Below are positions 12,691 to 40,100 of a DNA stretch of 64,000 nt, one piece after another. Positions within the stretch are counted from its first letter, which is position 1. Every line of letters begins with the position of its first letter. The position numbers were made by a program, and so were the translations under genes. Source of the stretch: Paralichthys olivaceus. Taxonomy: Eukaryota > Chordata > Actinopteri > Pleuronectiformes > Paralichthyidae. The notes beneath the pieces are model-generated. The model made no database searches and had not been told where the DNA came from. It saw only the letters and a list, made by a program, of their open reading frames with translations. The stretch covers positions 5,552,001-5,616,000 of the forward strand of contig NC_091114.1 in the NCBI RefSeq assembly GCF_024713975.1, read 5' to 3'.

Positions 12691-15600
12691 TCATGATGAA
12701 TTCTCATCACAAAATTTTACTTTATTCTCACTTGGGCTGGAAGGAAACGCTCCATTTGTGTCTATATCAACAGGATCTGTCAACAGTGTGATTTTACAGA
12801 AGTCATCTTCCTCTGCTGGGATGTACATATTGCCAACAGTGCTCTGAGAAAACAGAAAGATAAATGTTTGAAAAGAAATCAAACTCAGTTGCATTTGAAA
12901 AGCCATCATCAAATCATTTTAGAGACCACAACAACTGTTGTGATTATGGACTCAATTGATTCGAGAAACAGTGAAAGGATAACTCCTAAAAAAAACAAAA
13001 TAAAAAAATGATTATATATTTAATTATATGTGACTGAATCAAAGCTATAACTTACATCTGCAACTTAATGAATCAGGACTTGTGCACAGATGTTGGACAT
13101 ATAATCTGTTTAAATTGTGGCCCCTTTATGGTGCATGATTTAGAAAAATCATAGATCCGCCACTGACTTGAACACAAACTGTATATTAAGGCGACCACTA
13201 GCAACCTGTTAGCTTAACTGGTCAAAAAGACCAGAAGCATGGCAGAACAGCCTGACTATGTCCAGGGGAACCAGTACTACTAAAGCTCAGTTTCACACTT
13301 ATGATTCTAATACTTAACTTCAGGTCAACCTCCTCACCTGTCAGGACAAATACTTCCCAAACCATCCTTCTATCCCTTTAACAATTCCAGGAGACACCAC
13401 CATCAGGGTGTTAACCTCACCTTATTGTTGTTGTCAAAAATATCTGTGAGGTGGTCCCGAGGTTGTGGTACTTGAGGGAAGATGTGAATCCTAATCCTGT
13501 ACGGTGAGAGTTAAAATATCAGAGTCAAAACAGATTCAAAAAATACTAGAATCAATAGCATCCAAGGAAACATTAATAAGACGATACACACTTCCTGCAA
13601 CACACAAAGGTCAGGACTGTCAGGCCAGCCAGCACCAATGGGGTGAGGACGACGGCATACACCCACCCATAAGCATCCGTCTCTGCATCTGCATGTAAAA
13701 ACATCCACAGTGTTATTATCAGCAGAGAGTGACTAACACAGCAACAGAGCTTAAACTGAAACCAAAAGAATTTACAACATAATGCAGAAGTCATCTTTGT
13801 CATAGAACGCTTCCTGAAACAGACTGTAGATGGGAGCATCACATTCAAATCCTACACACAGTGGCTTTAAAAGGCTTATTAGTTCATTACTGTGTATATA
13901 TATATATATTTATGTGTGTATATATATATATATATTTATATGCCTTTTAAAGTGCCTTTCTAATTTCAAACAGAGAGATGAAGACCATACCAAAATATTT
14001 CTCCTCGCTCCATTCTGTATTAAATTTTGAGTAACAAGCTTTCATTGCCATGCGGTACTGGCAGTCAGGCAGCCGGTTCAGCTCATATGATGTTTGTTTT
14101 ATGTCTTGTATCAACAGATCCTGTGGGAGAATGAAGACATAATTGTTATAGTGGTTAATCACTCACATATCAGTTTACATCGTGGCATTGTCAAACCCCC
14201 CTTGAATTGAAGGTATATTATTCATTTCAAAAATGTAAAGAAAGGTGAGTGAAGGAGAGCAAACAGATATATACAGTATGTCATATCTTTTGACTGAAAT
14301 ATAACTTCTTCACTCTCAATCTCAGGTATTCAATTAGGCATCCAGTTGCTAAAATTGAAATTATTACATGTTATGATGATTATTAATGGAACCTATTGAG
14401 CCTAAAATAAATGGACTTAATGCGTCACAGTGACATCTCTTACCTTCTTTTTCTGACACTCAGTGTAGTTGATCTGAAACGCCTGAAAACCGCTTGTGAT
14501 GTCAGGAGTATTCCATCCGATGGTGAATTTATTCCCATCTTTTTTTACTGTCCAGTTAAGGGATTCTTTCACTGTGAAGAGACAGGCATGACAGATATTC
14601 CAGAAATTGTAACGAATACATTTCCAAGAAAGGACAGAGAGCAACTTCTTGGACTGAAGAAGGAAGTACATCTTGTATTTCAATACAATTCTTTCCACCA
14701 TACCATCATTTATATTGTCCTTGCTGAAAGTGTTCCTGAAAGGCGTGTTGTTCACCGTCCCGTTGAACAAAATCTGAATTTCCTGTTGGAGGTTGGACTG
14801 CAGCCTACAGCCGGTCCTGACGCCTAGGGTGATATTATATGACGAGCACTCTTGCAAACGGGGTAAAGGGGTAACCTCGTTTACAGATTGATACTTTTTC
14901 ACCACTCTTGGAAAGAGAGAGAAAAAAAGGTGATTAGCTCTTAAGCTCCACACTAATTCTGAAATCCCCAAAAAGTAAATTAAAGAAAAAAGAACTAGTG
15001 AAATGAACATTTAACACATACACTCTTCGATACGATTCAATAAATAGCTCAACATTCTTATGTCTGACTTGACAGCCAGAAGCTGGTTAGTTATAAGAAA
15101 GCTAGCAACTCTTCTTTTTCTGTAAAGAAAACAAACTTGTGCAGCCTGTGCTTTTCAGCTTTGGATTTCTGGGTTTGGCTGATGCCAGTCTGCCATGTTT
15201 ATTCAACACTTAATCACCGTATTTGGCTAGGCCTTAACAAATGACACATACCGATAGAAAAAATGAACACTTTGCTTGGGAGCAGCTGGCTTCCAGAAGC
15301 AGGTAACGTCATTTGAGGAGTACCTGTAGCACTGCACGTCCCTCATCACTGGAAGGAGCAAACACATGAATCCAGTCAAAATATTATTCAAAAAGCTTTA
15401 GCCTATTTCTTTGTGTACTCAAAAGCATTCAAATTGAAGGGAGCAAAGTGAGCTACCTGGATAAGAGACATTGAGGACAGCCGGCTCGCTCTTTCTGTTA
15501 TCACATTTAGTTACAACGGAAAAATGCAGAAATCCTCCGTTCATCACGGTGGTAGGGCGGGTCCAGGGAGGGGAAGGGAGATCCTGAAAAACAAAAACAC

Positions 15601-18040
15601 ACACACAAACTTCAGCACATCTAATATCGGAGTATAAACTGTATTCATCGCATATAAATACTGTGGCAAATGAATTTCTAGCAATACTTCCCAACCATAT
15701 GTAAATAATAATAATCCAAAGAATTTTAATTAACTCAGGGCACCAAAATGATCTGTTGCTTCCAGGAGGAAATTTTAACTTAAATATAATAAAATGTATA
15801 ATAATAATAAAACATTGGCAGTGATTCCTAAGATGTTATTATCAAAAAACAAATGTAATGGATGGATTGACATTTTACTGTTGAATCATAAACGTATATA
15901 CTTATTATAAAAATGAAACACAAATACAACCAAATATGTAGAACTTGAATTTAAAAATGAACGTATGTAAATGTCAAAACAAATGCTCATCTTCAGTTTT
16001 CATATCGGCAAAAATAAACGCTGACACCGATATGTCTGTGGAAGACTAATTTTGGCCAATATTATCGCCCCAACTGATTTGGCAGTCAAATACGATTAAA
16101 ATGAGATGTGTTCATGAAACCTTTTATGAAAAACATGAAGAAGAAATACATTTTACAAAATGGAGCGACATATGGAAACTCACTTCCGTAAAGCTGTCTT
16201 CTGATATTCCTTTTTTATATGAAAGCACCTGAAAGGTGCAATTCACCGCTGAATGCTGCAGTGGGTCCCAGGTCAACTGAGGTTGAAAGTCGTTAATCCA
16301 CAGCAGGGACAGATTTTGTGGTGGTAAGACTTGGCCTCAGGTGAAGAAGGAGACAGACATCTCATAACATAGGGTTTCAGCTGGGTTGTGATCAACTTCT
16401 GTGTATGTGCAAATGCATTTTGTAGTATACACATTCACACTAAACATTTTCCCATCAACATGAGCATTTGAGGATTCGGGGCCGGGCCAGAGGGGCTCTG
16501 CTCTTAGCATCTTATGTCTTATTTGATTTGCATGCACTCCAGTTTAAAACACAATAAATATGAAAATAATTTTTACACACAATGCTTGAACAAGGAACAT
16601 AAGCATTTATGCTCAAAGCCAGAGACTCCCTGGTCCCTGATTTACAAACATCCATCCCTGGAGGTAAATTATTTTACATGTTATTTCTGGTGTGTGACAT
16701 TCATGGTTTTGAATATAGTAAGATCAGACAGCTAGCCCTCAAGCACACCACCTACCTCGACCAAAATGTTTTAAATGTGTCAACAATGAGTTTGCTTTGG
16801 TGCACATTAGTGTCCTTATTTCATCAGCCAAACTATGTTTGTAGCAGGATTACACAAAAAGTACTCAACAGGTTACAACAAAACATTTTGCAAGAATATG
16901 TTATGGGTCGAGAAAGAACCAATACAAATTTGAGCCGTGGATCTGATCAGGGGGCAGATCCAGGATTTTCTTTTCAATTTCTTTAACATTGTGAAATAGG
17001 ATGTTTTTCAGCCTTCCTGTTGATTTCTCAGAGAATCACGCTTGAATCGGAAAAATCTAAGATACAATAAGCGGGTTGTAATGAACAATTTCTGAATCTG
17101 GCTGATTTAAAAGTAGTTTAATAACAGTGTTACTGTAAATTCCACCATTGTGTATCTAGGAAACACAATGTAGGCTTATAAGTTAAGCTTGTTTTTTTTT
17201 GTCTGCCAAAATACAAAGTGAATAAATAACTAACTCAATACAATACACACAGAAATAAATAAATACTTGCATGTTGGAAATACTCTGCATACTGTGAACA
17301 CTTGCACACTGTACTTACTCAGCTGTACTGCTCTTCCTATTTTTCCTTTTTACCTTCAAAAACATACTGTGTATATATTATTATATTTACATTGTTAAAT
17401 TTTAATACTCGATTTTTTTTTAATCTTCTTAAATTTAGAGATGTCTGACATGCACCAAAACAAATCCCATGTGTGTGTAAACTTACTTGGCAATAAAAGC
17501 TTTTCTGATTCTGATGCTAATTCATAAATAAGCTGGTTCATCACCAAACTGTGTTTTTGTTTTTTAAATCATGCATCTCTTTTACGTTTACTTGGATTTT
17601 CTGGTTGTTCATTTATTTATTAAAGTTCTTTTTTTTAAGATTTGGCAGTTTCGGTCCTCCACACTCTGCTGAGGGCGTCTCTAGTTTTGCTGAGGACATG
17701 TTATGTCCCGTTATAACCTGGATATATAAATGTAAATATAAATTACAAGTGAAACATGTTTCTGTGTCTACAGGCAAATCAGACTTCATCGAAATCCCAG
17801 CGCAACAGGATATGAAGTTCAGAAACCTGTTTACAAGTCACTGTGTGTCGTTGCTATGGAAACAAACTGTCAGGGGATTAAGTTTTATAAAGTTTTTTCA
17901 AGAATAATATCGAGAAATGGAAAAAGATTTTTTTTAAAAGCGTGTTATCAAAAGTGTGTGTTTTTACCCGTGTGCGATTCCACCATCAGAAAGAGCCGAG
18001 CTATAAGGAACAAGGACAAACTTCCAGTCCTTCCAGTCAT
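12691..18040 (-). CDS. il13ra1-like class I cytokine receptor, second tandem copy (complete, 411 aa)
   Basis: Ten coding exons: 18040-17968, 16335-16184, 15583-15457, 15348-15252, 14906-14704, 14571-14444, 14120-13991, 13688-13592, 13496-13421, 12843-12691. They sum to 412 codons with stop; all junctions are GT-AG and all phases agree. Seen: signal peptide MTGRTGSLSLFLIARLFLMV; an N-terminal fibronectin-like domain (about 25-120); a cytokine-receptor module with C-x8-C-x-W (QCYRYSSNDVTCFW, about 120-135) and a second cysteine pair (about 165-180); a WS-type motif NTEWSEEK (about 293-300); a membrane span VYAVVLTPLVLAGLTVLTFV (about 308-330); Box 1-like IFPQVPQPRD; and a short tail with GNMYIPAEEDD. 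Inferred role: surface receptor chain for IL-4/IL-13-type cytokines, signalling through JAK/STAT with a partner chain. Box 1 and the tail argue against the decoy IL13RA2. It lies in tandem with il13ra1 at 22897-31309. Paralogue naming is uncertain. Confidence 0.87.
15895..16080 (+). repeat. Dispersed repeat relic in intron 2 of the il13ra1-like gene
   Basis: The sequence around 'TATTATAAAAATGAAACACAAATACAAC' (given here as its parts TTATTATAAA, AACACAAATACAAC) followed by 'GACACCGATATGTCTGTGGA' and 'TTTGGCCAATATTATCG' matches the relic at 27355-27530 in the same order. It resembles an abundant fish repeat with CGATAT/CCAATATTATC words. It carries no coding capacity. Confidence 0.5.
17170..17520 (+). 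repeat. LINE 3' tail-like repeat in intron 1 of the il13ra1-like gene
   Basis: The stretch ends in CTTGGCAATAAAAGC followed by TTTTCTGATTCTGATGCT, the characteristic 3' end of many fish non-LTR elements, preceded by TGCACACTGTACTTACTC-like words typical of such 3' UTRs. No reverse-transcriptase remnant was recognised. Confidence 0.5.
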
Positions 18041-18320
18041 CTTGTCTTTTCACTCGTCCTTCCCTGGTTTCGTCTTCACCTCCGCTGCCAAGAGTCAATA
18101 TTCTTCCTCCACAAAATTACAAAGTTTTGAGGATTCAGTCTATGGTTGAGTCACGTTGACCCAGAGCTGTGCTTCATCGGAAAGCAGGAAGACGTCAGGA
18201 GCATGGAGGCTGGAACTGGGCGGAGAGCTTCCCGTTTCTGACGGGGAAGCTTTTACGAGCAGGAACCAATGGTTGTATGAATCAATGGAAATACACCACC
18301 AAGTCTCACGTTCTGGATTA
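18041..18320. other. Upstream flank of the il13ra1-like gene
   Basis: This should contain the 5' UTR and promoter of the gene starting at 18040. No TATA box or strong CpG clustering is visible. A perfect inverted repeat, AGCTTCCC and GGGAAGCT around a 10-base loop, lies at about 18226-18251. The minus strand is open across it, but the encoded sequence is not recognisable as a protein family. Confidence 0.4.
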
Positions 18321-18324
18321 GATA

Positions 18325-18640
18325 CAACAAGAAGATAATCTAACACAAGAAGATAAGAATATAAGATGGGAAGATAAGCTATCATGAGAAGATAAGAAGA
18401 TAAGATAGGAAAGTAAGATATCATGAGAAGATAAGAATATAAGATAGGAAGATAAGATAAGAGGATAACACAAGAACATAACACAAGAAGATAACATAAG
18501 AAGATAACATAAGAAGATAACATAAGAAGATAACATAAGAGGATTGACCAATATACAAAAAAAAGATAACATCAAATTCTAAGAGATAACAAAAGAGAAC
18601 AAGATGAGAAGATAACGACATGAGAAGATAAGCAGCTCAA
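18325..18640. repeat. (AAGATAAGAT / AAGATAACAT)n tandem array
   Basis: About 300 bases of short units such as AAGATAAGAT, AAGATAACAT and AAGATAAGCT. It produces open frames full of S-Y-L-I-F-L on the minus strand, which are not genes. It sits only about 300 bases upstream of the il13ra1-like start codon. Confidence 0.85.
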
Positions 18641-18789
18641 AAAGAGGAAGCAGTTCAACAAGAAGAAACAGCTCAAACAGCCGAGTCACTTCCACCAGTT
18701 AACATTCGTCTAAGTGGCAGTTACGATCCTCAGATGAGGGCTTGCCAATTGTTTCTATATTTTTCATTTTACCCCATCGACGGTGATAT

Positions 18790-18895
18790 GATGTGACTTC
18801 TCTCTTGTGGCAAATGTACTTATTGTAAGTCGCTTTGGACTAAAGCGTCTGCTAAATGCCCTAAATGGAAATGGAAATGGAAACAGTCACCTGTG
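18790..18895 (+). repeat. SINE/LINE 3' tail (V-SINE / L2-type end)
   Basis: Contains TTGTAAGTCGCTTTGGACTA followed by AAGCGTCTGCTAAATG, the very common 3' end shared by several fish SINEs and LINEs, and then a short tandem of AAATGG. The 5' part is not recognisable. Confidence 0.75.
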
Positions 18896-19221
18896 TCTTT
18901 TCAATGGCAGTAGCGGTGCGACAATTAAGGAATCAGAGTTGCGCCGTTAATCAGCCTTTTGTCACTTTATAGTTTGGATCATAATTGCTCTTACAACATT
19001 GACGCCAAATTAGGTGAAATTCTGTTGACTAGTTATTGCAGTACATGTTTTTGGTGTTTTATCTAAATAGTTACAGGATGATTAGACAAATAGTTAAATG
19101 GCCAATTTCTACGCTGAGCCCCGCCCTTTGCAAACGTTTTTGGTTAGTAACAGAAATGATTTTTTGAAAAATCCTGATGATTTGAATAGAAATGTGTATC
19201 TAAGTCACTAGAATACACTAA

Positions 19222-19962
19222 TACACTATATTGCCAAAAGTATTGGGTCACCTGCCTTGACTCGCATATGAATTTAAGCGACATCCCATTCTTAATCCCC
19301 TTTGCAGCTATAACAGCTTCAACTCTTCTGGGAAGGCTTTCCACAGGGTTTAGGAGTGTCTTTATGGGAACCATTCTTCCAGAAGCGTATTTTTGAGGTC
19401 ACACATTTGATGTTGGACGAGAAGGCCTGGCTGTCAGTCTCTGCTCTAAATTATCCCATCGGGTTGAGGCCAGGACTCTGTGCAGGCCAGTCAAATCCAT
19501 CCACACCAATCTCTCTCATCCATGTCTTAATGGACTTTGCTTTGTGCACTGGTGCACAGTCATGTTGGAACAGGAAGGGGCCATCCCCAAACTGTTTCCA
19601 CAAAGTTGCCAAAATTATTCACTCACCCATCCAAATGGGTGTATAAAGTGCACTATATTGCCAAAAGTATCAATATCCAAGTGTTCAGTTTGGTGATGAA
19701 TCAGAGACTGAGAGCCAGGCCTTCTCGTCCAACATCAGTGTGTGATCTCACAAATACGCTTCTGGAAGAAAGTCAAAAAGTCCTATAAACACACTTTTTA
19801 TAAACATAAACCCTGTGGAAAGCATTCCCAGAAGAGTTGAAGCTATTATAGCTGCAAAGGGAGGACCGATGTCATATTAAACCCTATGGATTAAGAACAG
19901 CATGGCACTTAAGTTCATATGCAAGTCAAGCATGGTGACCCAATACTTTTGGCAATATAGTG
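19222..19962. mobile_element. Two truncated Tc1/mariner-type copies in inverted arrangement
   Basis: The terminal-repeat word CACTATATTGCCAAAAGTAT occurs at 19223 and again at 19651 on the plus strand, and its reverse complement ATACTTTTGGCAATATAGTG closes the block at about 19943-19962. Between 19222 and 19645 the transposase remnant reads on the minus strand. Between 19651 and 19962 a shorter remnant reads on the plus strand: GAGCCAGGCCTTCTCGTCCA, then AACCCTATGGATTAAGAA. The two remnants carry overlapping 3' transposase segments in opposite orientation. Both are defective. The structure is a pair of internally deleted copies sharing a central terminal repeat. Confidence 0.75.
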
Positions 19963-20762
19963 CATCTACCAAGTTTGATGATGATTGAATCAAATGATGA
20001 AGGCCAATGTCCTGTTTTGCTAAATATTTTTTGGGTAAATGGCATTCTTTTTTTTTTGACCAATCCTGCTCATTTATAGTAGACATATGTATCTCAGTCT
20101 CATGTGAAGATGTCACACTACTGCTTTTCAATTTACGCAAATTAGCCAAACAATGATCATGGCGGACTTTATGGTCCAAGAGGCTTTTTTGTAGAACATA
20201 TTGAGCTGGACTTGTGTGTTGAATTTTAAGTTAATCAGACTTAGGGTGTGAGGGCCGTCACAAAATGACGTGTTATATTTAGTTTCAAACTCTTTTTTAT
20301 CATTATGTTCTGCGGCACTGAAATATGTTTTACTACAGAAATATATAAAACTATAGTAAGTTCTACTTAAAATACATTTTTTATATTCAGAGGTTGAGCG
20401 GTTAAATGAAAAAAAAAATGTATTTTGATGTATTCATAACAGATAACCCTGAGATAGAATGACTACATGCACAGATACCATAAATGGTCAAATATCCATC
20501 AGTGTGGTAAGTTCCTGCAGCTGTCCTTATTAGGACTCTGCATTGACTTTTATTCATTGTGGGAAGCTTCACCAAAATCTTCTCCCGATAACCTAAACCA
20601 AGACCAGTGCATGCCTAACCCTGACCTGACGCCTTGCCTCAGTCGGACCAGGCTTCAGCTCCTGACAAGTCAGTGTTAACTCACATATATATATATAGTC
20701 CTTAACATATATAGACTAATGCAAATATATGGGCAGGTCAAGTATACAGTACACATTATATG

Positions 20763-20985
20763 TGGGCAGCTGTGGCTCAGGAGGTACAGTAGGTCACCCC
20801 CTAACAAGAAGGTCCCTGGTTGGATCCCTGGGTGCTGTATCTGTGCTGGTCAATGTGTGGGTGACGTGTGATAAACTGCTGCACACTGTATGGATGTGTG
20901 TTTCAAGGGCAAATCTATACTGTATAGTGCATTGAGTTGTCATCAAGACTATAAAAGTGCAATATAAATCCAGCCCATTCACCAT
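20763..20985 (+). mobile_element. tRNA-derived SINE
   Basis: The head reads GCAGCTGTGGCTCAGGAGGT (box A-like), with TGGTTGGATCCCTGGGT about 45 bases on (box B-like), and the tail reads ATAAAAGTGCAATATAAATC. This order is the standard fish tRNA-derived SINE pattern. No terminal poly-A is left and several bases have drifted, so it is an old copy. Confidence 0.8.
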
Positions 20986-21973
20986 ATGACTATAAAAATG
21001 TATATATCTATGCATAAACTCTAAGTATGGTTTCACAATAGTATACAATATGATATGATTATCACATGTAATGTTACATGATAGCAGGTGCTGACTCACA
21101 GATAATACCAGCTAAATGGAGTGTTCACAAGTAAGATCAACTTGTCACATTTTAGAGTGCACTACTGGGGATGTGGCACTTTGGGTGTGTGGCACATAAG
21201 AGTAATTAAACAACATCATCAGACCTGACAGGCAAGTTGTAATCAAGCTGTAATCATGTACAACTGTCAGTCGCCTGTTAATTCACAACAGAGAATTATC
21301 CAAAACAATGCTGAAAGTTGAGTGCAAAGGTTGAAATCAAACATCAACACCGCGACAAATCACATCAGAATCATTAGCGTCTGCAGGCAAAGTTCACGCA
21401 GGTCAGTTTGTTTCCTGACAACACGGCGTAATTCTTTTTCATTACTTTTCAGATTAAGATCAAGTCTGTCTGAGAATTCCTGCAGAAACACAAGGGCACT
21501 GGCATGTTTAGTTCTGTGTAAAACACAGTGTTTGTATTCATGCTGAGAGATAACAAGCTTTCTCCCTCATTAGTTGGCTGATACAACACAGTCTTGGTAA
21601 AGTCACCCCGATTGCTTTGACGAAATTGCTTCCTGCCTGTTGTCGAGCGGCTGTGGTTGGAGGCATCAGAACAAGGGGTCCCCAGGGATACAGCAGCTCT
21701 TCTTACCGGTGGGAAAGAGCCCATGTACAGTAGCTTCCACTGGCCCAATTGCAGTCTTCCATGCATACACTCTGCTATAATCTTTGTCTTCATCCTCTGT
21801 CCTCAGCAGGTATGACAAGCTCTCTCGGGTTCCTAGGGGGTTCCTAGGTTATTTTTCTTTTTTTTCAACTCCAACGAATGAGGATGCTTGAGTTGCTCTG
21901 CTGCAGCCCCATGTTTAGTTCCAACGTGGTGCTGCACGTCTTTCCCGCTCCCACACTCTGACCTTTCAATAAA

Positions 21974-22245
21974 AAAGGTCCAGTGTGTAAGATTGAGGAA
22001 TTTTTGGCAGAAATTGAATATAAAACAATCCTAGTGATGTTTTCACTGGTGTGTAATAATCTTAATTGTATGAATTGTTGTTTTCTTTATTACTGAATGG
22101 GCTCTTTATATCTAAAAACTTTATATTTACATGGAGGGGGGTCCTCTTTCATGTTTGGAAGGGGAGGATGAAATGAGGAGTATTCAGCAACAACATGCAA
22201 ATTCACCTCTAGATAACACAAAATTCTACACACTGAACCTTTAAT
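21974..22245. mobile_element. Short inverted-repeat element (MITE), copy 1
   Basis: Left end AAAGGTCCAGTGTGTAAGATT and right end AATTCTACACACTGAACCTTT are imperfect inverted repeats. A second copy with the same ends and similar interior (AATCCTAG.AATGTT; GGTCCTCT) is at 50255-50592. It has no coding capacity. It lies between the two receptor genes, where it may form part of the il13ra1 3' flank. Confidence 0.7.
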
Positions 22246-22896
22246 GTCCTTAAACATACGAAAATAACTTTCCAGAGATTGAATCATCTTTAACACCACC
22301 CATTACCATGACTTCCTTAATAGCAGCTGAGAACTGCGTCTTTCCCGTCCTCTAGAGGTCAGAGTGGTACAGAATTGTGCTCAGGTCAGAACAGAACAGG
22401 TAAAACAGAGCTCACTTGTAAAACGTAAAACAGTTGCCGACTTGACGCTTCCATCAGAGGTCAGTGAAAAAAAGCTTTTTAGTCTGGTGCTAAGTTACTA
22501 CACATGTCACTGAGGAATTCACCCAGTTCAGTCCAGTGAAGTTGCAAAGTTGCCTGACACCTGTATTCTCTGCAATGACCAGCAGATGGTGCCCTACTGT
22601 TTTAGTTGCAAATGGACTTCAATTTCCTGTAGAATTCTATGAGGAAATTAAGAGTTTCAGGTCTCAATCAAAAGTTTAAAACCTATTCAATAAAGCACAA
22701 TTTTGTAAATGATAGTGCCACAGTGAGCATTGGGGCATGTACACAGTGTCAGTTACTCTCGTCCAATGGGTGCAGGTCGCAGGCGCAGGTGGGCGTGCAG
22801 TGTACTCGATTCGCCGCCAAATATGGGCAAACTCGAGGCTTCAAAATGGCAGCTCACAACTCAATGGATGACGATGCCACGGGGGGGCTGGGCATG
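22246..22896. other. 3' flank / probable 3' UTR of il13ra1
   Basis: There is no gene here on either strand. The first AATAAA on the minus strand after the stop at 22897 is far away (22091-22086), with an ATTAAA near 22244, so the 3' end of the transcript cannot be placed. The 22639-23004 plus-strand frame overlaps the last il13ra1 exon and is antisense. Confidence 0.4.
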
Positions 22897-25800
22897 TCAG
22901 GGGTTTTGCTGCAGCTCGCCACTTTGGCTTATGAGGGTTACTCTGCAGGATTGTTCTGGCTTCGGCGTGTACAGATTCTCAGTCTGAAAAACACAACAGC
23001 GTAGTGAGTGTTTGTTAGGGCAGAGAAAGCAGGTGAGTAGAGCAACCATATTTGAATTAGTGCCATGACAATATAGAAATAAATACCTTATATGCCTTGT
23101 TTCCGTCCATCACCATTTCTTTGAAGATTGCAGAGGGATCTGGTGTGTTGGGGCAAATAATGCTGCTGTACCTACAGAACACACAACAACAATCAATCCC
23201 AGTGAATCAAATGAAACTAGCACAAAATATTTCCACCACCAAAACACTTTTATAATATTTCAACAAGGAGCTGTTTATTTTCCTCAGAAGAATGTGAGAT
23301 CTTTGGTGCTGAAGGCTCCGAATGTGGATATGGTGATCCGAGCACAAGTGAAGTGCGGATAGGAGAGCGTTCCGATCATTCTCTCTGCTCGTGAACGTGT
23401 ACAAACATGACTTTTGAGAAACTTGAGTGTGATGTGGAAACATGCCATAGAGTAGACTTGCTTTATTAATCTTTAAATCATTCTAGAAGTTAAAAAAAAC
23501 TGTGTGATGTCTCATCATAACTAATACTAATGTTTGCTTCGCAGCTTTTAGTAGATCTCTAACAAAGTCAGATTCGATTAAGAGTAACAGTAACTTCGTT
23601 CATGTTAAAGGGAATTTTCTTGACACACACATGAGCTGTTTGTTGTCTAGCAACTGACCTACTTTTACAAAAAGGTCAGGTGTTGCAATAATCTCAGTGA
23701 CACTATTCAATATCCCCGTCATCATCAGCATCATCACCCCATTAACATCTGGCTTTTGTCTGCGATAGGAATTGATACAATCAAGCATTCAGTCCCGAGT
23801 CAAATGACGAGGGCCTTTTATCGGCTCTGATTGCCAGTAATGGAAGAATAACACCAGAGTGATCGCGCTAATTTCTTCTTCTGCTACAGGCCGAGACTGA
23901 TGTGGGAACTCCCATCATGCCCTGAGCACTAACACTTGTCTGACTCCCTCTCTCTGTCTCGCTTCCTCTGGCTGCCCCCGTGGTATATCACATTTCTACA
24001 TATCTCTCTCTCTCTCCCTCTCTCATTAAAAAATAGAAAGACAGAGTTTAAATATGATTACACAACTGTTTCTGGTCTCTCTCTCCTCTTCCCCCAATCG
24101 GTCGAGGCAGATTCACATTGTTTAACCTCGGTCTCGACCTTGCTATGTAAAGTACAAAAACAGATATATGTTCTGCTTTGGCACTATTCAAATAAAACTA
24201 AATTGAATGTGTTTATTGACACAGATCTCAAGGACTGCTAAATGAGGGCATGTGCAGCAACATCGAGTAACTTGGACACCATGAGTTTAACCTTGCACCA
24301 TCTACAGACGCTACAATGCAATGTTTTCAGTTCTGTGTCCCAAACATACTTCCTGAAGCAGTAGCAGGACAGAATGATGGAGAAAAACACAATGGTGGGG
24401 ACAATGAGGGCCACAGAGATAAGCGTCCAGTCTTGAGTGTTGTCGGCCATACCTGTGGAGAGCGACAGACAAGTGTCAGCTTTTAAGGAACAATTTAAAA
24501 AGTATTCCTCAAGTCAGAAATTAAACTCATCTATCTTATTTCATGTGTTTGATTTTATAGTAAAGCACTTTGAGCTGCATTTTATGTATAAAAGGTGCAG
24601 TATAAATAAAATGTATTTTTATTATTATATACAGGGGTTATCTCTGTCTGCAAATCAATATGAGAACACAGCAGGAGACCACCATGAGAGAATCTGTGAA
24701 AGGCGGAGAAACCCAATTTTCAGAAGATCCTCTGCAGGTCATGTCTAAAAAATGCTTATATATGTGCAGTAATTCTTGTTTTACAACTTAAGAAACCAGT
24801 GTAGAAAAGAGGGTTGGTTACCATAAGTTACGTTTTTATTCCATGTGCCGAGTATTGTCTGGCAATAACTGCCATTGGTCAACACTCTGTATGTGAAATT
24901 GTAAAGGAAGCCTTTGGTGTACGGCACTTTGGTCATCTTATTCTGAGAGAGCTGCAGGGAAACGTTCGTGCATTTCTGAAAATATATCACACACAGGAGG
25001 ACAGTTTGTTAGGTAAGGGGAAACTTCAGTATGGAGCTTTAATGGAATATGATGCAGTTGTCTGAATTTAAATGTTTGGATATATAAACAGACACGTGGA
25101 AAATATTTGTACTGCAGACATGTTCCCAGTTGTGGTATTTGCAACAGAAAGATATGTCATAAATGGTGACAACTTACTTGGGCCTTGCATCTTGTGTAGT
25201 TGAATTCGTACATCCATGTACAACTTATATTAGTCTCTGGAGCTTGCCAAGTTAAGATTAGTTGTTCATCCCTGTCTGTGATGCTCAGCTTTGGTGATTC
25301 TGTTCCTGGGGAGATCAGAAGATGTTTTATATTTATTTTCTTCACATGTAATTACATGAATAGAACTTTTTCTGGAGAAAATACCAACCAATGGGACTTC
25401 TAAAGACTTTCCATGCAGTGCTGGTGTTAACAAGAAAGCAGAGGTCAATTCTGTCAACGTCCAGGATACAATAAAGCCTTCCTCCACTGCTGTATGGTTG
25501 ACATGCTTGCAAACTGAATTTTCCAGGAGGTGTGCCACAAACCCTGAAGTGACACAACAGAGAGGTGAGGAGAGGGGTCGGTAGAAGGGAAGTTGAACCA
25601 CAAGGAGTTGCTCTGGTTTTGATCTTTATTGGCTTAGTCCTTACTATCTTAAAGAAGGACCATGGATGCCACTTGATGCTTTCACATATTAAGACTTATG
25701 GAACAATAAATATTTCTCATTAACAATCCTGCCAGCCTTAAGAATGAATGATAACGGTATCAATGTTTATGTTGTTTCAACCTTTCAGACTGTACAAACG

Positions 25801-28800
25801 GTGTTATACCAGACATGTGAAATGTCTCCTTATCTGAGACACTGAATTGCTGAATTGATAACTGTGTCTGCACCCATATCATTTGGGAGGCAGGGGGAGT
25901 TCATATGTGTCAGTGTGGCTGCCTTTTACATTCCGCCGTCTCCTGCCGCAAACTAATTGCGTGACATCATCAAGTCTGTCTGCGCTGCAATTAAAAACTC
26001 AATGACTAAATGTTTCAGTTGAAAAATGCTGTTTTCGAATGAAAATGTTCCATCTTCCTCTACTCTGAGCTAGTAACTACATACTGATGCTTCTACATCT
26101 GCAGACATCTCACAAATGTATCCTTTATATAAATACCAAGATTATTCATTCATTCATTCAAGTTGCACAGAAACAATTCATTTTTTGAATCCCCTCCCAA
26201 CTCCTCGAGCAGACTGGTTTAACACAACAATTATGTTGGGCTGGAAAATGATTGTTAGAGAGTGGAAATACGTTGATTTCCCTCTGGCACATGTGGCTCT
26301 CTTAGCTTGGAGGAGAGCACCTAATAGTAGTACCTGTCACATTAAAAACCCTTGAATCCTCCCAAAATCAGCTCACCCTTTAATTACAATTAACTTCAAA
26401 GTAATTACTTTATTGTTATCTTTTTATTTCCTTACTTTTTTATTCTGTGGTATTTTTATTTGGTGTGTATACATATGTATAGGTATGTGTATAGATATAT
26501 GTGTGTGTCTTTTTTCTATTGTATTGCTAAAGTTTGCGTCTGTCTTTCTACATACAACTATTGTGGCTGTTATTGTTTTAAATCAGATAAAGTGTTGATA
26601 GTCATAAAAATCAAATTTATTGGCATTTTATATATGTTCTCACCAATAGGATATTGTGGGGTTCTGAGTCGAGTTCAGTGGGGTCCATGAACATTTAATT
26701 CCATCAACACCAAACATACAGTCGAAGCTCTCCAACAATTCAGCTGCATGACAAAAAAAACAAAGGTGTCACACACATACATTGCATGTAGAAGATTCAA
26801 GTCTGGTTCTAAAGCATCGCAATGGATGAATGGGACAGAGCATCTAAATACAAAAACTCTAGTATGTTTTCCTTTTGCTTTCTGGCACTCACCTCGTGGC
26901 GTCTTGCTTTCAATGGTTTTAGTCACATTTGTGCTGTTATTCCAACCACTGCAGTTGGTAGTGGCACGAACAGTGTAATTCCAATGATCAGAATCCACTT
27001 GCTCTGTGAGACAACTACCGATGAAGTTTTTCTCAGGCACACGCATCTCACACTAAAAAACAACAACACAGGCTTCAGTGATGATGACAGTTTGCTGACA
27101 CTTCTTCTCATCCTCTTCCCCTTTATCTCTCATAGCAACCGGGCAGAGGCAGACAGCGGCACACTAAGAGCCGGGTTCTATTAAAGGTTTCCAGCAGATA
27201 AAAAGGAGTTTCTCCTTGGCACCAAAAGTGTTGGCTCAATAAAGAATGTTGTGGCTCTCAAAATATAATATTGTAAGAGTAAGGTCTGCACCGAGGCTCT
27301 GAGATCATTTCAGTTAGCATATATATATTTATATATAGATATTACAGTTTAACAATCAACTTTATTATAAATAAAACACAAATACAACAAAATATATTGA
27401 CATTGTTGATTCTGTAAAATAAAGGTTTTCAAAATGTTTTTTGACAAATATAAATGCCAATACTGATGTGTCTTTGAAAGGCTCACACTTTTAATTGGTC
27501 GGACTCTAGTAATTATAAACTGTGGTACTAAATTAGACATAATATTACATTTTTACAATACATTGTTATTATTAGTGCTTTCAATAGCCAACTCTCAAAT
27601 CTTGAAAAACCTTTAACTCATGGCCAAGATTTTCCAAAACAGTTAAGGAGAAGCTCAATAAACATCATAAAAGTGGCACTCAAGGGATTTAGTCCTCCAC
27701 TCACAAAAACACACATTGTACATTATGTGCAAAACATCAGAGGCAACAAAGTGTGACATGTCCTTAACCATAGTCCCCCCAAAACACTGGATCCTAGTTT
27801 TCCCATGATGCAACGTGATTGCACCTTGAAACCATGTGCAAAGGAAAAAACACACATTACCCTGACCATTGCATCACTGCAATAACCAACACCCAACCCA
27901 ACCATGTTTTTTCTGTACGTTAACCAGGTCCTTGATGCCGGATTCGGCATTGTGACCTCTTGGATCAATATTTGTTTCTGGTATTTGTGTTACATCTGTT
28001 TCATCACTGAGTTGGTTAGTCATAGTCATCCTAAATAAATTACACACCGTGTCATTTCTATTATACACTGCGCTGTCTAATCATGATGGTGGATCGTGAT
28101 GATGGATCATGATTGGGATTGTCTTTTGATTGTGGTTAATGGATCGTGACCGTGATGGTGGTAGTAGCCAATCACGATCTAACCCTAACCCAGATGTTAA
28201 GCCCTATGAGGCTAACAGATTTGTGAATATGTGGTTTACAAATACAATTTGATTGATTGATTGATGAGGGGCGAGTCAATATATTTATCACTTTCATCAC
28301 TTTTTGCTGGTTAAAATGTAAATAAAATCGAAATTGAGTTCACTAATTGTTGCATGGAACCTCCAAGACTTGACCAGGACACTTACCTTGTAAACAGCTG
28401 GATTTGAGTCATCCACCAGCCCGACAAAGTACATGATCTCACACTCCTTTGGCAGCGCGCTAGGCCTTTGCCACGACCATGACACCTTCACAGTAATCTC
28501 ATTGAGCCACTTGTATGACACCTCTGTTGGCGGAGGAAGGTGTTCTGTGGAATAAGATTTTTACCAGAAGGAGAAATTACCCTCTGCTGTTTATGAACAA
28601 ATTATGCTTTTCTGACTAATGGCCTCACAGGGGTTCAAACATACCACAACAGTTTTTTTCCTGAAAAAGCCAATAAATAAAATCTGCAGCCTAACCCTTT
28701 GAAGACATTGCTACATCTGTATTTCCTGGCGGGCCCTTGAGGTTATTCGGACTTTGTTTATTTGTTTATTCATTAGGATCCCCATTAGATGTGTCCGATT

Positions 28801-31309
28801 GTGAATGTATTCATACACTAATCCAAAACATTAAGGGAACACTTAAATCAGATCTTGATGAACAAACAGATTATTCAAGTTGAAAATCTTTACTGACAGT
28901 TGTTGAGAACATAAATACGAGACAGCGGTCAATGGAAACCAAAATCATCAACCCATTGAGGGCTGGACTCAAAACCAAAAATCAAAGTAAATCATTTTGA
29001 TTACATACTGAGCCAACTTAATTTCATCACAGCAACTAATAATGTGACTCAGTAGTGTGTATGGCCTCCTTGTGCCTGTTTGCACCCCCGTCTGTGCATG
29101 CTCCTGATGAGTCCACAGGACTCTCCTCCCAGACCTGGATCAGGGCATCAGTGAGATCTGTCAGTCTGTGGCAGAACTTGGTGGCCTCTGATGCAGCGAT
29201 ACATAACATCCCATAGGTGTTCAATAGATTGGATTTCTGTCAGGGGGACGTAAGGGTCAGTCAGTGGCATCAATGCCTTTGTCATCCTTCGCACTCTGGC
29301 CTCATGAGGCTGGGCTTTGTCCTGCAGAAGGAACACAGGGCCCACTGCACCAGCGTAAGTTCTGACAATCGCTTAGAGCATTTCAACCCGGTACCTAACA
29401 GCAGTCAGGGAACCCTTGGCTATGACATGGAGGTCTGTGCGACCCTCCAAGGATATGCCTCCTCAGACCATCACGGTCCCACAGACAAACTGGTCATGCT
29501 GGATGATGTTACAGGCAGCATAACGTTCAGTGGTGGACCTGCCAATTCTGGTGTTCTCTGGCAAATGCCCATCGCTCTGCATGGTGTCCTGTGAGTACAG
29601 GTCCCACTAGAGGATGTCAGGCCCTCATGGAGTCTGTTTGTGACAGTTTGGTCTGAAACATGCACACCAGTGGCCTGCTGAAGGGAATTTTGTGGGGGCA
29701 CAAAGGAACAGATACTGGTCCTTCTGCTGGGTCAGTGCCCTTCTACAGCCCTGTCCAGCTGTTTTCGTGTAAATGGCCGGTCTCCTGGTATCTCCATGCT
29801 CTTGAGATTGTGCTGGGAAGGCATGGGAATGCATGTATGGTTATGCAATCCTGGAGGAGCTGTGCTAACTGTGTAAACTGATTGGGCTGCAGGTAGCACC
29901 TCATTCTACCAGTATTGACAAGGACACGAGCAGAACACAAAATAAGAGAAGACTCAGTCAGGAAGGATAAGGAGCAACTGTCTGTGGCCACCACATGTAA
30001 AACCATTCTCTTTTTGGGGGTTGTCTTTTCTTTTACCTCTCCATTGCACCTGTTGTCACTTCCATTTGCACCAAAGCAGGTGAAACTGATACACAAACAC
30101 TAGTGCTTCCTAAATGGACAGATTGATATCCCTGACGTTTAACTGACTCTGTGTTATACTTTGACCATTAAGTGTTCCCTTCTTTTTTTTTTGAGCAGTG
30201 TATATATGAAGATTTATAGTTATACTATATAACATACTGCTATTTAGTATGCTACATGCTATATACTTATAACAGTCTAAATGCATCTATATGTACAGGA
30301 TATTTTCAATATCTCCTTACATATAACAAACAAGTAGAGGTTACATCCTCATGCTATCTTCCTGTGCCTCCACACAAGTTCCTCTCTCTACAAATGAAAT
30401 TTCTGTCGGTAGCGAGAAGGTGTGTATTACTTACATATTCTCTGTATTTTTATTTCATTTTTTATTGCCTATGTTATTCAATTTTTTTATTTCACATGTT
30501 CTCTTGTCTATCTCATCCTGACTTTCTACTGTTGTGAATTTACCTGGCGTGGGATCACTTAGGTACTTGAAAAAAAACTGTGATTATTGCGACAGAAAAG
30601 GCTTTGGTGAATACGTGACATCCTCTTCGTTGTCGTTATAAAAAGTTGTTTTGCATTATACATCCCTCATATTTGTGGGAACATATTTGTTTGTTGCACT
30701 GGTAGTTCCTGTAGTAATACTTCCCCCCACGTCATACTTTTTATTTGCGGTTTACACTGTTTGGTCTATCGTAATTTATTTCCGTTTTTTTAATTTCTTT
30801 CTTTGTGCGTGTCTTAATCACTTTTATTTTCTTGTTCTTCCTTTTTTTCTGACAAGGTGTTTTTTTTAGCAGTCACGGAAATAAACATGTTTATACAATA
30901 TACTTATACTGTAATTACATTGTTTTATGAATACACCATTTGCCATCCACTACACGAATAAGGCTTTTTTTCAACGGAACATACACAAAACATGCAAAAT
31001 ATACAAACCCCCACAAAAAGGGATTTCATTTCATTTCAGTTTCTTTGCTGTCATTTTTTTTTTACATCAAACATACAAACAATTATTTATTAAAGGTCCC
31101 AATTTGACCACCCGGAAAGAGACGATTAACCACCGAACAAACCCAGTCTGCATCAAGCAACAAGAGCAAACCATGTGTGGGTGACTCACGCCCTGTTCCT
31201 TGTGACGATGTGACAGGAGTGTGAACGGGTGTTTACCTGCATCACAGCGGGGAGCCGTCAACGTGGCGCAGAGAAATAACACGGTGAAAAGTCCCGGAGG
31301 CACCGTCAT
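22897..31309 (-). CDS. il13ra1: Interleukin-13 receptor subunit alpha-1 (complete, 400 aa)
   Basis: Ten coding exons: 31309-31237, 28544-28387, 27052-26893, 26743-26644, 25543-25389, 25305-25178, 24975-24822, 24452-24350, 23171-23087, 22983-22897. They total 401 codons with stop, and every phase agrees. Seen: signal peptide MTVPPGLFTVLFLCATLTAP; an N-terminal fibronectin-like domain (about 25-130); a cytokine-binding module with FDCMFGVDGIKCSW (C-x8-C-x-W, about 137-150) and a second cysteine pair (about 175-190); many N-glycosylation sites; a degenerate WS box GTWNKNVTY (about 301-309); a membrane span WTLISVALIVPTIVFFSIIL (about 318-340); Box 1 CPNTPDPSAIFKEM, close to the family's PPIPDPGKIFKEM; and a tail with ENLYTPKPEQ. 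Known role of the family: pairs with IL-4R alpha to bind IL-4 and IL-13 and activate JAK/STAT6. Position beside dock11 and the PDP-IFKEM box identify it as il13ra1. The short tail (about 58 aa) is normal for the family. Confidence 0.92.
24540..24625 (+). repeat. SINE/LINE 3' tail
   Basis: AAAGCACTTTGAGCTGCATT, then GTATAAAAGGTGCAGTATAA and an A/T-rich end, is the standard 3' end of a fish SINE/LINE family. It lies in intron 7 of il13ra1. Confidence 0.65.
27355..27530 (+). repeat. Dispersed repeat relic in intron 2 of il13ra1
   Basis: Starts CTTTATTATAAATAAAACAC, then AAATACAACAAAATAT, and later GCCAATACTGATGTGTCTTT. It is the same family, orientation and intron number as the relic at 15895-16080. 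Confidence 0.5.
28190..28265 (+). repeat. SINE/LINE 3' tail
   Basis: 'GTGGTTTACAAATACAATTT' followed by GATTGATTGATTGAT is the usual decayed tail of a fish SINE or LINE. It lies in intron 2 of il13ra1, just outside exon 2. Confidence 0.55.
28813..30202 (-). mobile_element. Defective Tc1/mariner-type DNA transposon in intron 1 of il13ra1
   Basis: Terminal repeats: TACACTAATCCAAAACATTA / AGGGAACACTT at the left and AAGTGTTCCCTT ... TTTTGAGCAGTGTA at the right. On the minus strand, degenerate transposase reads in several frames: RMRCYLQPNQFTQLAQLLQD and ISRAWRYQETG (DNA-binding HTH part, about 29935-29750), VSDQTVTNRLHEG (about 29660-29620), and QDKAQPHEARV ... SIEHLWDVMYRC (DDE catalytic part, about 29325-29180). 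Frameshifts and stops break it, so it is inactive. It has the same orientation as the host gene and sits wholly within an intron (28545-31236). Confidence 0.8.
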
Positions 31310-34422: not shown

Positions 34423-35354
34423 TCACACAGATGTGTCCTTGCCATAGAGGTAACTGTATATAAAGCTGCGGTGCTCCGGCTGGAGGCAGTAGTCAATGAT
34501 CATCTCAATGTCCTGGCAGCGTTTCTTGAATCGCATGCGGTCAAAGGCCGCCTTCAGCCAGGGACCCCGGCGATCCTCCTCATAACTGAGGAAGCACACC
34601 TCCACATATTCAGAGAATTGAACCTGACAGTGAAAAGAGGAGGAAGAGGAAGTGAAAGAACAGAAACTATTAGTTTATTGATCATTCGATCAGTAATGAC
34701 ACTATGAATAACATTTTTTTTCTGTTTCCTGTCAATAAACATTAAAACCTTCTATCGATTTTAATAAAAAGACAATGAATGAAAACCACAGGAAGAGGTG
34801 AAACTGACACAAGAGACACTGACCTTTTTGGTTGAAACACAACTCTTGGCCATGGAGGAAGAAGAGGTTGAAGTGGAGGGGGTCGGGGTGGAGGCCTTGT
34901 CCTTGCATCCAAATGAAGATGATGGAGAGGCCTTGTCTGGCCCTTGAATCCTGAGTGGGAATTGAGGGTTAAGTGGGTTGGAGGGATCTGAGGAGCAGCT
35001 GAATGAGTTCAACAAAGAGACGCTCTCAGCATCCGTTTCCTCGCTGTCCTCCCTGACACAAAAGCTGTCCACTGTCTGGCACCAAGACTTCGACAGGCAA
35101 TCAGAGTCAGAGTTAACCTTGCTGTTTGAGTCAGATCCCTCGTCATCAGCTTGGCTCAGAACAAACACATCAGCTGTTGCTGCAGTGGGGGTTTTTGTCC
35201 CAGATAGCTCTGGACATAGTGGGTTTGCTCTCATCCAGTCTTCAGCCAAGGACAATTTTGAGCTTTCTTTACTGTTGAGGTCAGCTGGCGTGACCCAAAG
35301 CCTGGTTGGAGAGACAAGGCTCTGCCCGCCGGATACACATCTGTCATCAGTCAT
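34423..35354 (-). CDS. Short PPP1R15 (GADD34/CReP)-like PP1 regulatory subunit (243 aa)
   Basis: Two coding exons, 35354-34824 and 34623-34423, split by a 200-base GT-AG intron (donor AAAAAG|GTCAGT, acceptor TTTCACTGTCAG). The start is the first ATG after an in-frame upstream stretch that begins only with TTG. Residues 1-170 are acidic and Ser-rich with no fold visible (about 60-135 rich in D, E and S). Residues 176-238 match the family's C-terminal core: KKVQFSEYVEVCFLSYEEDR (PP1-docking KVxF) then RRGPWLKAAFDRMRFKKR and DYCLQPEHR, as in PPP1R15B. Known role of the family: carries PP1 to phospho-eIF2 alpha and restores translation after stress. It is far shorter than human PPP1R15A or B (over 670 aa) and shows no N-terminal membrane helix. 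The KVxF motif is assembled across the junction. Which paralogue it is cannot be decided here. Confidence 0.85.
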
Positions 35355-35459
35355 ATTTGTAAGTGCTTGGTGAAAAATGATTTTCAACCGCAAAATACTA
35401 TGTTGGTTCTCCTACAGGTTCCTTTACTCCTTTGAAGTTTGGTGTACTTGCAGGTGAAC

Positions 35460-37181: not shown

Positions 37182-40100
37182 TCAGCCCTGGTCGGCTGAT
37201 GTCCCACTGATGGCGCGAAAAACATGGAGAGAGTTTTGTAACAGTGAGCGCATCATGTCCTCCTGGTAGATCTGGGGTCAGAGCAGAACATCGACAGGAT
37301 GAGGGTCAGTTCTCGCACAAAGACAAAGGTCACACACATGTCCATGACATCAGAGGACATAGCACTCACCTTATATATACCCAACCTTAGCCTTAAACCT
37401 AACCAAGCCCAAACCTTATACTAACTTTAGGCTAAAACTAACCAAAACCTAACCTTATACTAAACCCTAAACTTAACCCAACTTTAAACTAACCTTAACC
37501 TAAACTAACTATGACATAACCCCTAAACCCTAACCCAACTGTAACCAAACCTTGACCTCAACCCTAACTATAACCCTAAACCTAATCCTACAGGACACAC
37601 ACACACACACAAAGTCAAATCAGCTACATTTCACACTCGATAGGATGATGGAATTTGACACGATGAGGTTCAACACATAAGCTGAACAATGAAAAAAAAA
37701 AAAGATGAAACACATAAAACAAAGCTATTAATTGTACAATTCACTAGTAACAAACTAGCTAGTGTGTTTTTTAAATTTTCATAATGGTCTTTGTTGCAGC
37801 CTGATTTGTTTATAAGAGCATGTCATTAAACACCATATAATACATTTGAAGGGATTTTCTTTTGCACGTTATTACGTTACATCAATATTGTCTGCACTGG
37901 CTACCCACCAAACTCAGGATTCATTTGAAGGTTTTATTGCTCGTTTTTCAAACGTTGGGCTAGCACCACTTAATTTAACTGTTGCATCTTCATACTCCAT
38001 CCCGAGCACTAATGTCAACCATCCTGATGTTTCTGGATCCCCCGAGATCTTGGCTCAAAAATAGACGTGACCAGGCATGTCTAAACTCTGGAACAGCTCA
38101 ACTTCTTCCCTCCTGCTTTCAATTTAAGTTGAGTTTTAGACCTTGATTTCATCTGTTATTGTGCTACATTTTAATTAGTTTGTTTAATTGCTTTTATTTT
38201 TCCTATTCATTCAGTTTTTTATATAGTATTATTTTCCTTTTAAGCTTGAATGTTAAAGAAACCTTGGCTCCCTTTACAAAAAAACATGCCCATCCATGTT
38301 ACACTCAGACTCAATCTAAAATATATATGATACATGATGATTTTCAGAATCAGAATCAGAAGTACTTTATTAATCCCCGTAGGGAAATTCAAAAATTTTA
38401 AGTATTTCTATACCGGTTCTTTAATTTTGTGTATCCAGATGAATCAACTTTATCATTTAACTGAAACATGTATGAAAGAAATTGACCATAGGGTTTCTGC
38501 AACACTGTTTTCCCCTTTATGTCCCAATTGCCATCCATCAATTAAGTTGTCTAATAAAGAAAGATAAAAGAGTGTGTCTGTTATCCTCGCAGGTATGTAA
38601 CAAACACAACCTTTCATCGGACAGAATTAAATGAATCTCTGTCTGTCACTGATTAACCTGCCTGCATGCACCATGCCCACGGATGACCAAGCCCTTAGCC
38701 AACAGACGACAGCCGGAAGTTAGGGAGCAAATGACCTTGTAGCAGTTGTCAGGCAGTGCACGTTCATGTGTTTTGGGGCATAGCTTTGACCAGAGCGTGG
38801 ACTGGAGGGGATGGAGTGTATCGGTTACATTTTTTCAAAGTATGGCCTGTTCTTGCTAACGTCTCCAGGATTACCAACCCTTGCTTTTAACTAAGAAGGT
38901 GCAGATTTATAACTTAAATAATAAAAAGAAAAAGAACAAAATGACCTACAAAGGACCATAATTTCAACACACTTAACGATCACATTACCTGTTTTTTCCC
39001 CCTTAAAGCTAAAGGGCAGCACATTGGAGAGAAAAAGTCAGACCGGTTAGTGTAATGGAATCAGCTCAACACTTCCACAATCTGTTTGAGCAATACAGCC
39101 ATGACTGATTCAAAATATACTGCACCAACTTGTTTGGCAACAGTGAAGTGACTAACAGCAGCCTTAGTCTGGTATGTCATGTGGTGGAAAACAGAATAGA
39201 ATAGAATGCCTTAATCATTACACAGCTGCACAACAAAATGTAGCACGTCTCCCTGAGTGGTACATACGATCCATATAAAACAACATGCAGCACAATCAGC
39301 ACATAGATAAAAAACGTTCAGAGGAAGGCAAAACCACTGTGTCTGTTGCCATCTTTTTCTCAACCTTGTCACACAACAGCTAAACTAACCCCTTCTTCCT
39401 TGTTTTTTAGCATTACAAAATCAACAAAGCTTTATTGTGCAGGTCTGCTCATTATCAGTGTTAAACAATATGCATCAAGAAGTATCAGCAAGTTCATAAC
39501 ATAATAAGCGGGGTTAATGCAGCGATAACAGCTCTGTAATGTGTAATGTAATTTGCCCTTCCACCCCATTCTGGTCATTTGTATCCACAGCACTGTGACG
39601 CCAAGGTAATTATGGGTACAATGAAGTTAAAAATATTTATTTAACATTTAGGCATGACTCAACAAATAATTATACTCCAGCTGTTATATTTCTCAACCTT
39701 TCGTCATAGCTTTACACAAAGGTTAACTGTCATGGATGGTTGAGTAACAACCATCCATGACAGCGGGTTCTGCTGAAATTTTACTCATAGACTGTAACTC
39801 AACAAAACAAGTCTGTAGAGTCATTTGTTATGACAAAAATAACCATCAAAATACTTTTTGGTGTAAAGAAAAATAAGATTACCTGTTCGTGGATGATGTC
39901 CGACAGCTCCTTCACCATATCCTTAAAGTTGCCCTTCAGGCCCTCATGGTACTCAAACTGATCCTCTTTAATCAGCCGCTCGTTGATGTCCAGAGCAATG
40001 CTGCAAGCTTCCACGAAGCGTCTGCAAGTATTAAAAATAAAATGCACTTGACTTGACAAGAAACTTAAGGAAATGGCTGCTTATGAGAAAAGAGGATGAT

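Follow-up and report, generated by a model that had tools for sequence, protein, structure and literature searches.

A probable old tandem pair of class I cytokine receptor genes, il13ra1 and a diverged neighbor, in Paralichthys olivaceus

Two receptor genes with one exon plan

Two class I cytokine receptor genes, here called A and B, form a head-to-tail pair on the minus strand of the window, i.e., the whole 64,000-nucleotide stretch of Paralichthys olivaceus DNA that was analyzed (C22:5552001-5616000, on contig NC_091114.1); genome searches covered 588 Mb on 25 contigs. Both gene models were rebuilt from the minus strand of the window DNA. Gene A (31309-22897, 400 aa) and gene B (18040-12691, 411 aa) each comprise ten exons with an open frame, each encodes a single-pass receptor, and GT-AG borders were found at 18 of 18 introns, which bears out the description of two complete ten-exon receptor genes given in an earlier note on this DNA. 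Exon lengths are 73, 158, 160, 100, 155, 128, 154, 103, 85, and 87 nt in A and 73, 152, 127, 97, 203, 128, 130, 97, 76, and 153 nt in B. The length pairs listed earlier are exact, in the order B/A, and so is the identity of all nine intron phases (1, 0, 1, 2, 1, 0, 1, 2, 0). The further step from these identical phases to a duplication is weaker than was claimed, however: the five phases readable by eye in the il13ra2 gene of this fish on C15 (0, 1, 2, 1, 0) equal those of A and B, so the pattern is a family trait rather than the mark of a single A/B duplication. Since equal phases are family-wide, they provide no evidence that A derived from B or the reverse, and they leave the duplication undated.

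In gene A, the start codon and putative signal peptide are located in exon 1 (31237..31309, like all exons below on the minus strand), followed by the first and second parts of domain 1 in exons 2 (28387..28544) and 3 (26893..27052), domain 2 in exons 4 (26644..26743, with the first cysteine pair) and 5 (25389..25543), domain 3 in exons 6 (25178..25305) and 7 (24822..24975), the membrane span in exon 8 (24350..24452), box 1 with the peptide PDPSAIFKEM in exon 9 (23087..23171), and the tail end with the stop codon in exon 10 (22897..22983). Gene B follows the same order, with the start codon and putative signal peptide in exon 1 (17968..18040), domain 1 in exons 2 (16184..16335) and 3 (15457..15583), domain 2 in exons 4 (15252..15348, with C-x9-CxW) and 5 (14704..14906), domain 3, an fn3 domain, in exons 6 (14444..14571) and 7 (13991..14120), the membrane span in exon 8 (13592..13688), a box 1-like stretch, FPQVPQP, which aligns to CSF2RA box 1, in exon 9 (13421..13496), and the tail end with the stop codon in exon 10 (12691..12843). 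Domain 2 of B matches Pfam IL6Ra-bind.

Judged by hydrophobicity, both proteins have a signal-like start and a single strongly hydrophobic membrane segment (the top-scoring 19-residue windows cover residues 319-337 in A and 316-334 in B), in line with the signal peptides and spans reported earlier, and both carry box 1-like prolines as well as at least ten glycosylation sequons. A 2007 survey gives the class I double cysteine motif as CX9-10-CXW-X26-32-C-X10-15-C and assigns WSXWS, which is slightly variable, to the cytokine receptor region, within its second fibronectin fold (PMC1963337). The cysteines of A (C-x8-CxW-x27-C-x10-C) and of B (C-x9-CxW-x33-C-x12-C) each depart from this motif by one residue in one spacing, and canonical WSXWS is absent from both proteins, being replaced in the respective exon 7 by WNKN in A and by WSEEK in B.

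Two stretches resembling mobile elements were also seen at the locus, one between A and B (19221-19965) with 78-base inverted arms (86% complementary) and nested inverted repeats, and a transposon-like one in the first intron of A (28825-30189), whose 22-base inverted ends are 86% complementary and separated by about 1.3 kb. Left of B and on its strand, kirrel-type and ndufs2-like exons were detected at C22:5521-5541 kb (-); we take these to be a kirrel-type gene and ndufs2, neighbors that would presumably set B at a break in mammalian gene order.

Gene A as il13ra1, and il13ra2 on another chromosome

Judged by its sequence, gene A is the fish il13ra1. Its membrane and tail segment scored z 15.1 to IL13RA1 and 11.1 to B, compared to 4.1 to IL5RA, 3.1 to CSF2RA, and 0.8 to IL13RA2, the human tails in these segment scores being provisional and that of CSF2RA confirmed by a solved chain up to EEFTPEE. 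An IL13RA1-type membrane span and the PDPxxIFKEM tail are present in A (human tail provisional). For the outer domains, the top raw score of A was to IL13RA1 (174.5, z 10.1), with B at 162 (z 11.1) and no other human receptor above 112.5, and domain 1 alone matched Pfam Il13Ra_Ig (E 0.0006) without reaching the curated cut-off. When human IL13RA1 was run against the window exons of both genes, it reached those of A best. Across the whole genome, the same query listed an il13ra2 exon (E 0.4) and an fn3 match due to chance, but neither A nor B; that A was missed is likely due to fast change and small exons. A whole-genome Il13Ra_Ig search gave no match, A included.

The neighborhood points the same way. 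Upstream of A on the minus strand, reading frames of dock11 type (39799..45526) include two tested frames, 39799-40080 and 45224-45526, that exceed the cut-offs of the Pfam DHR-2 models for lobe C and lobe A; we take these to be dock11 rather than another DOCK gene, and DOCK11 adjoins human IL13RA1. Between A and these frames lies a ppp1r15-like gene (34423-35411, -), the C-terminal frame of which scored 48.6 bits against Pfam PP1c_bdg and the other 25.8 (cut-off 26.1); we know of no ppp1r15-like gene between IL13RA1 and DOCK11 in mammals.

A comparison with sea bass IL-13Ra1 adds to this picture. The published primers for that gene encode ENMMKVPY and PDPSAIFK (PMC5440397). Gene A offers fitting peptides for both, QNKMTKVPY in exon 7 and an identical PDPSAIFK in exon 9, and the reverse primer agrees with the sequence at 23143 in 20 of its 24 bases, compared to 8 mismatches at its second-best position in the window. 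The forward primer, aligned to A without gaps, shows 8 mismatches, which is chance level; no site was found for these primers when up to three mismatches were allowed, and the primer interval in the A cDNA is ~276 bases, against ~200 in the paper (PMC5440397).

The il13ra2 gene of this fish is located at C15:13526001-13536000 on the minus strand, on another chromosome than A and B, and has an intact WSEWS. Human IL13RA2 matched six of its outer-domain exons (up to E 6e-10) and was the best human query on five, with IL5RA better on one. A genome search with Pfam IL6Ra-bind gave two matches, together on C15 (13 candidates scored). Genome searches with the receptors themselves (E up to 1) returned for A its own exons (14 best candidates scored), and for B its own exons plus one il13ra2 exon (E 0.7; 8 best candidates scored); within these limits, no close paralogue of A or B was found. 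Six short B patterns run against viral and prokaryote collections gave 5 and 34 pattern matches, respectively, and no confirmed relative.

Affinities of gene B

Gene B is similar to several receptors of the group at once. Its best match among solved structures, by sequence, was CSF2RA (E 1.6e-5), running from domain 2 through domain 3 and the membrane span to box 1, and IL13RA1 was absent among its 7 structure matches (E up to 10). Pairwise scores for the outer domains were 165.5 to IL5RA, 163.5 to IL13RA2, 162 to A, 143.5 to IL13RA1, 143.5 to CSF2RA (first domain of CSF2RA left out), and 108 to IL3RA, and z values from 12.3 to 9.2 across IL5RA, IL13RA2, A, CSF2RA, and IL13RA1 indicate similar levels. 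In profile comparison, the outer domains scored 51 with IL13RA2, 38 with the alpha chains, and 30 with IL13RA1 plus A, changing to 49, 75, and 73 once tails were added. For the membrane and tail segment, z was 11.4 to IL13RA1, 11.1 to A, 10.0 to CSF2RA, and 9.6 to IL5RA (human tails partly provisional), and -0.8 to the provisional IL13RA2 tail. The IFKEM tail motif is not found in B, which has RDHLTDIF at the equivalent place.

These similarities raise the possibility that B is an alpha chain of the IL-3Ra/IL-5Ra/GM-CSFRa branch, still located next to il13ra1, at the birthplace of that branch, and acting with a common beta chain, a reading that we regard as unlikely but as the most serious alternative. 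Apart from the structure match and the top outer-domain score with IL5RA, it draws on the observation that human CSF2RA and IL5RA, run against the exons of A and B, reached only those of B, weakly (best E 0.5). The membrane and tail segment of B, on the other hand, favors neither side, its similarity to A and IL13RA1 equalling that to CSF2RA and IL5RA (human tails partly provisional here too). A whole-genome search with human CSF2RA gave no match, B included, and one with human CSF2RB gave weak matches only (best E 0.035). Human gene order was the reason to search for a csf2ra-like gene beside asmtl on C10, where no receptor match better than E 0.18 was found in 120 kb; since even within the window B is barely picked up by human CSF2RA, this empty region shows little. 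Two weak matches to slc25a6, interrupted by stops (E 0.004 and 0.009), were seen there at C10:5485523-5486298 (-), ~4 kb from an asmtl-like Maf domain.

In favor of this alternative, csf2ra has been annotated in scad, along with a separate IL13RA1, and in cod macrophages (PMC11047736, PMC8818700). The 2007 survey did not find zebrafish IL3RA, GM-CSFRa, or IL-5R and suggested that these receptors stem from IL13RA1, IL13RA2, or TSLPR; it identified zebrafish il13ra1 from synteny and listed a similarity of 16.7% for it (PMC1963337), so that this gene could be of either A or B type. A 2015 review states that no IL-3/IL-5/GM-CSF ligand candidate was found in non-cyprinid teleosts, while cautioning against overvaluing this result (PMC4690019). 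If B were an alpha chain of this branch, it would mark the birthplace of the branch, and a fish ligand would exist that has so far been overlooked.

The trees include two species only (this fish and human) and have very long branches. For a seven-sequence set (five human receptors plus the two fish genes; three alignment modes by two column sets), A and B paired in 4 of 6 trees, and B grouped with IL5RA, IL3RA, and CSF2RA in the other two. When fish il13ra2 was added as an anchor for IL13RA2 (eight sequences, with provisional human tails included in three of the six alignments), all six maximum-likelihood (ML) trees paired A with B and none placed B with the alpha chains. SH-aLRT/UFBoot values for the pair were 92.9/89, 94.9/80, 93.8/79, 96.9/82, 70.2/53, and 97.2/89. 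The earlier note had proposed such a tree of both products with class I receptors as a check on its duplicate pair, and the eight-sequence trees uphold the pairing. Its label of an il13ra1-type pair fared less evenly: A is il13ra1 and the two genes are nearest relatives in these trees, but B is not specifically il13ra1-like, as the CSF2RA structure match illustrates.

Alternative placements were compared by approximately unbiased (AU) tests. Placing B among the three alpha chains (IL5RA, IL3RA, and CSF2RA) cost 0.4-10.3 log units relative to the eight-sequence ML trees and was rejected in none of the six alignments (p 0.09-0.56), while B with CSF2RA alone was rejected in five. Grouping A with IL13RA1 was likewise rejected in none. 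IL13RA1 fell outside A and B in the best trees, and forcing the three together cost 1.5-3.8 log units and was not rejected (AU 0.17-0.42).

Since both fish genes are long-branched, we used simulations to evaluate a long-branch artefact. When the data were simulated with A next to IL13RA1 and B as one of the alpha chains, an A+B pair was recovered from 2 of 59 fixed alignments and, with indels and realignment, from 3 of 48; when the two were simulated as a pair (indels and realignment), the pair was recovered in 41 of 48. These rates lean optimistic, because the simulations reuse the simple model of the tree and the branch lengths of one alignment. They nevertheless suggest that long branches alone would seldom yield the A+B pair, which argues against B as an alpha chain. 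An early reading of B as the GM-CSFRa orthologue, taken from the structure match, was lowered by the eight-sequence trees and these simulations. In addition, the branch of B was shorter than that of A in all six eight-sequence trees, so the broad similarity of B to the group may reflect retained ancestry.

Other origins for B appear less plausible. A recent duplicate of il13ra1, with IL-4/IL-13 binding shared out between two similar receptors, would agree with the tandem position, the equal exon plan, and the pairing in trees; yet A and B are only 24.4% identical (89 of 365 aligned residues), their outer domains share 27% identity compared to 28% between A and human IL13RA1, and the exon phases are common to the family, which makes a recent event improbable. 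Because A is about as distant from B as from human IL13RA1, the duplication should instead be ancient. It is more improbable still that B is a decaying or untranscribed copy: while its WSXWS is degenerate, so is that of A, the il13ra1, and B has kept 411 open codons, nine GT-AG introns in phase, a hydrophobic start, a membrane span, and a box 1-like stretch at great divergence. Finally, B is hardly il13ra2 or a decoy receptor, for although exon 5 of B was the best match of fish il13ra2 among the exons of A and B (E 7e-7) and IL13RA2 gave B its highest outer-domain profile score, il13ra2 itself lies on C15, B carries a box 1-like stretch, its longer tail is unlike the provisional IL13RA2 tail, and the AU test rejected B with IL13RA2 in three of the six alignments, with this placement never the best tree, so that the grouping named earlier as fatal to the duplicate pair did not occur.

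A probable old tandem duplication and its putative roles

Since A and B are nearest relatives in all six eight-sequence trees, tandem duplication is the better reading. Most likely, and as far as sequence comparison can tell, they are a real and old tandem pair of a known kind rather than the product of a recent event. Specifically, we assign a probability of roughly 0.58 to A being il13ra1 and B an intact, long-diverged tandem sister, with both genes going back to a local duplication that would have occurred long ago among ray-finned fishes. On its shorter branch, B may have kept ancestral traits, which would explain its likeness to several members of the group.

Known receptors share different features with the two genes. 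IL13RA1 has the dock11-type neighbor, the PDPxxIFKEM tail, and the membrane span in common with A, and differs from B in its IFKEM tail. The GM-CSF, IL-5, and IL-3 receptor alpha chains resemble B in the three outer domains and in a box 1 followed by a D-x-L-x-D stretch; they differ in that the trees prefer B with A. IL13RA2 has equal readable exon phases and a clear domain 2 similarity to B, but is a separate gene, whereas B has a signalling-type tail.

A counterpart of the pair has probably already been described in trout. A review gives 34% identity between two divergent genes, trout IL-13Ra1a and 1b, and credits them to genome doubling (PMC7274943). The IL-13Ra1 of sea bass appears to be of type A and shares ~50% identity with trout 'IL-13Ra1beta', here taken as 1b (PMC5440397), and an IL13RA1A transcript is named in a grouper brain table (PMC5295026). 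By inference, the pair described here probably corresponds to trout IL-13Ra1b (A) and IL-13Ra1a (B). A tandem arrangement such as that of A and B is absent from the published descriptions of the trout genes consulted, and no description of the tandem pair was found in the literature covered, mainly open-access papers.

Both A and B are laid out as receptor chains of type I topology, in which three outer domains and one span are followed by a short tail that contains box 1-like sequence. This layout is that of a chain without its own kinase, so each should pair with another chain and a JAK; by analogy with their class, A and B would most likely each serve as one chain of a two-chain receptor that recruits a JAK kinase. 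In the type II IL-4 receptor, the partner of IL13RA1 is IL-4Ra. Gene A would then be the second chain of a type II IL-4/13 receptor, most likely with IL-4Ra as its partner, while B, together with a partner chain, is most likely a putative receptor for a helical cytokine of the IL-4/13 group or a related one. A split of IL-4 and IL-13 use between A and B, as put forward in the earlier note, is possible but conjectural. If B is indeed the sister of il13ra1, studies of IL-4/13 in fish that measure a single IL-13Ra1 may overlook the other gene of the pair, and the 34% identity between the trout genes may stem from an ancient tandem duplication instead of a doubling of the genome.
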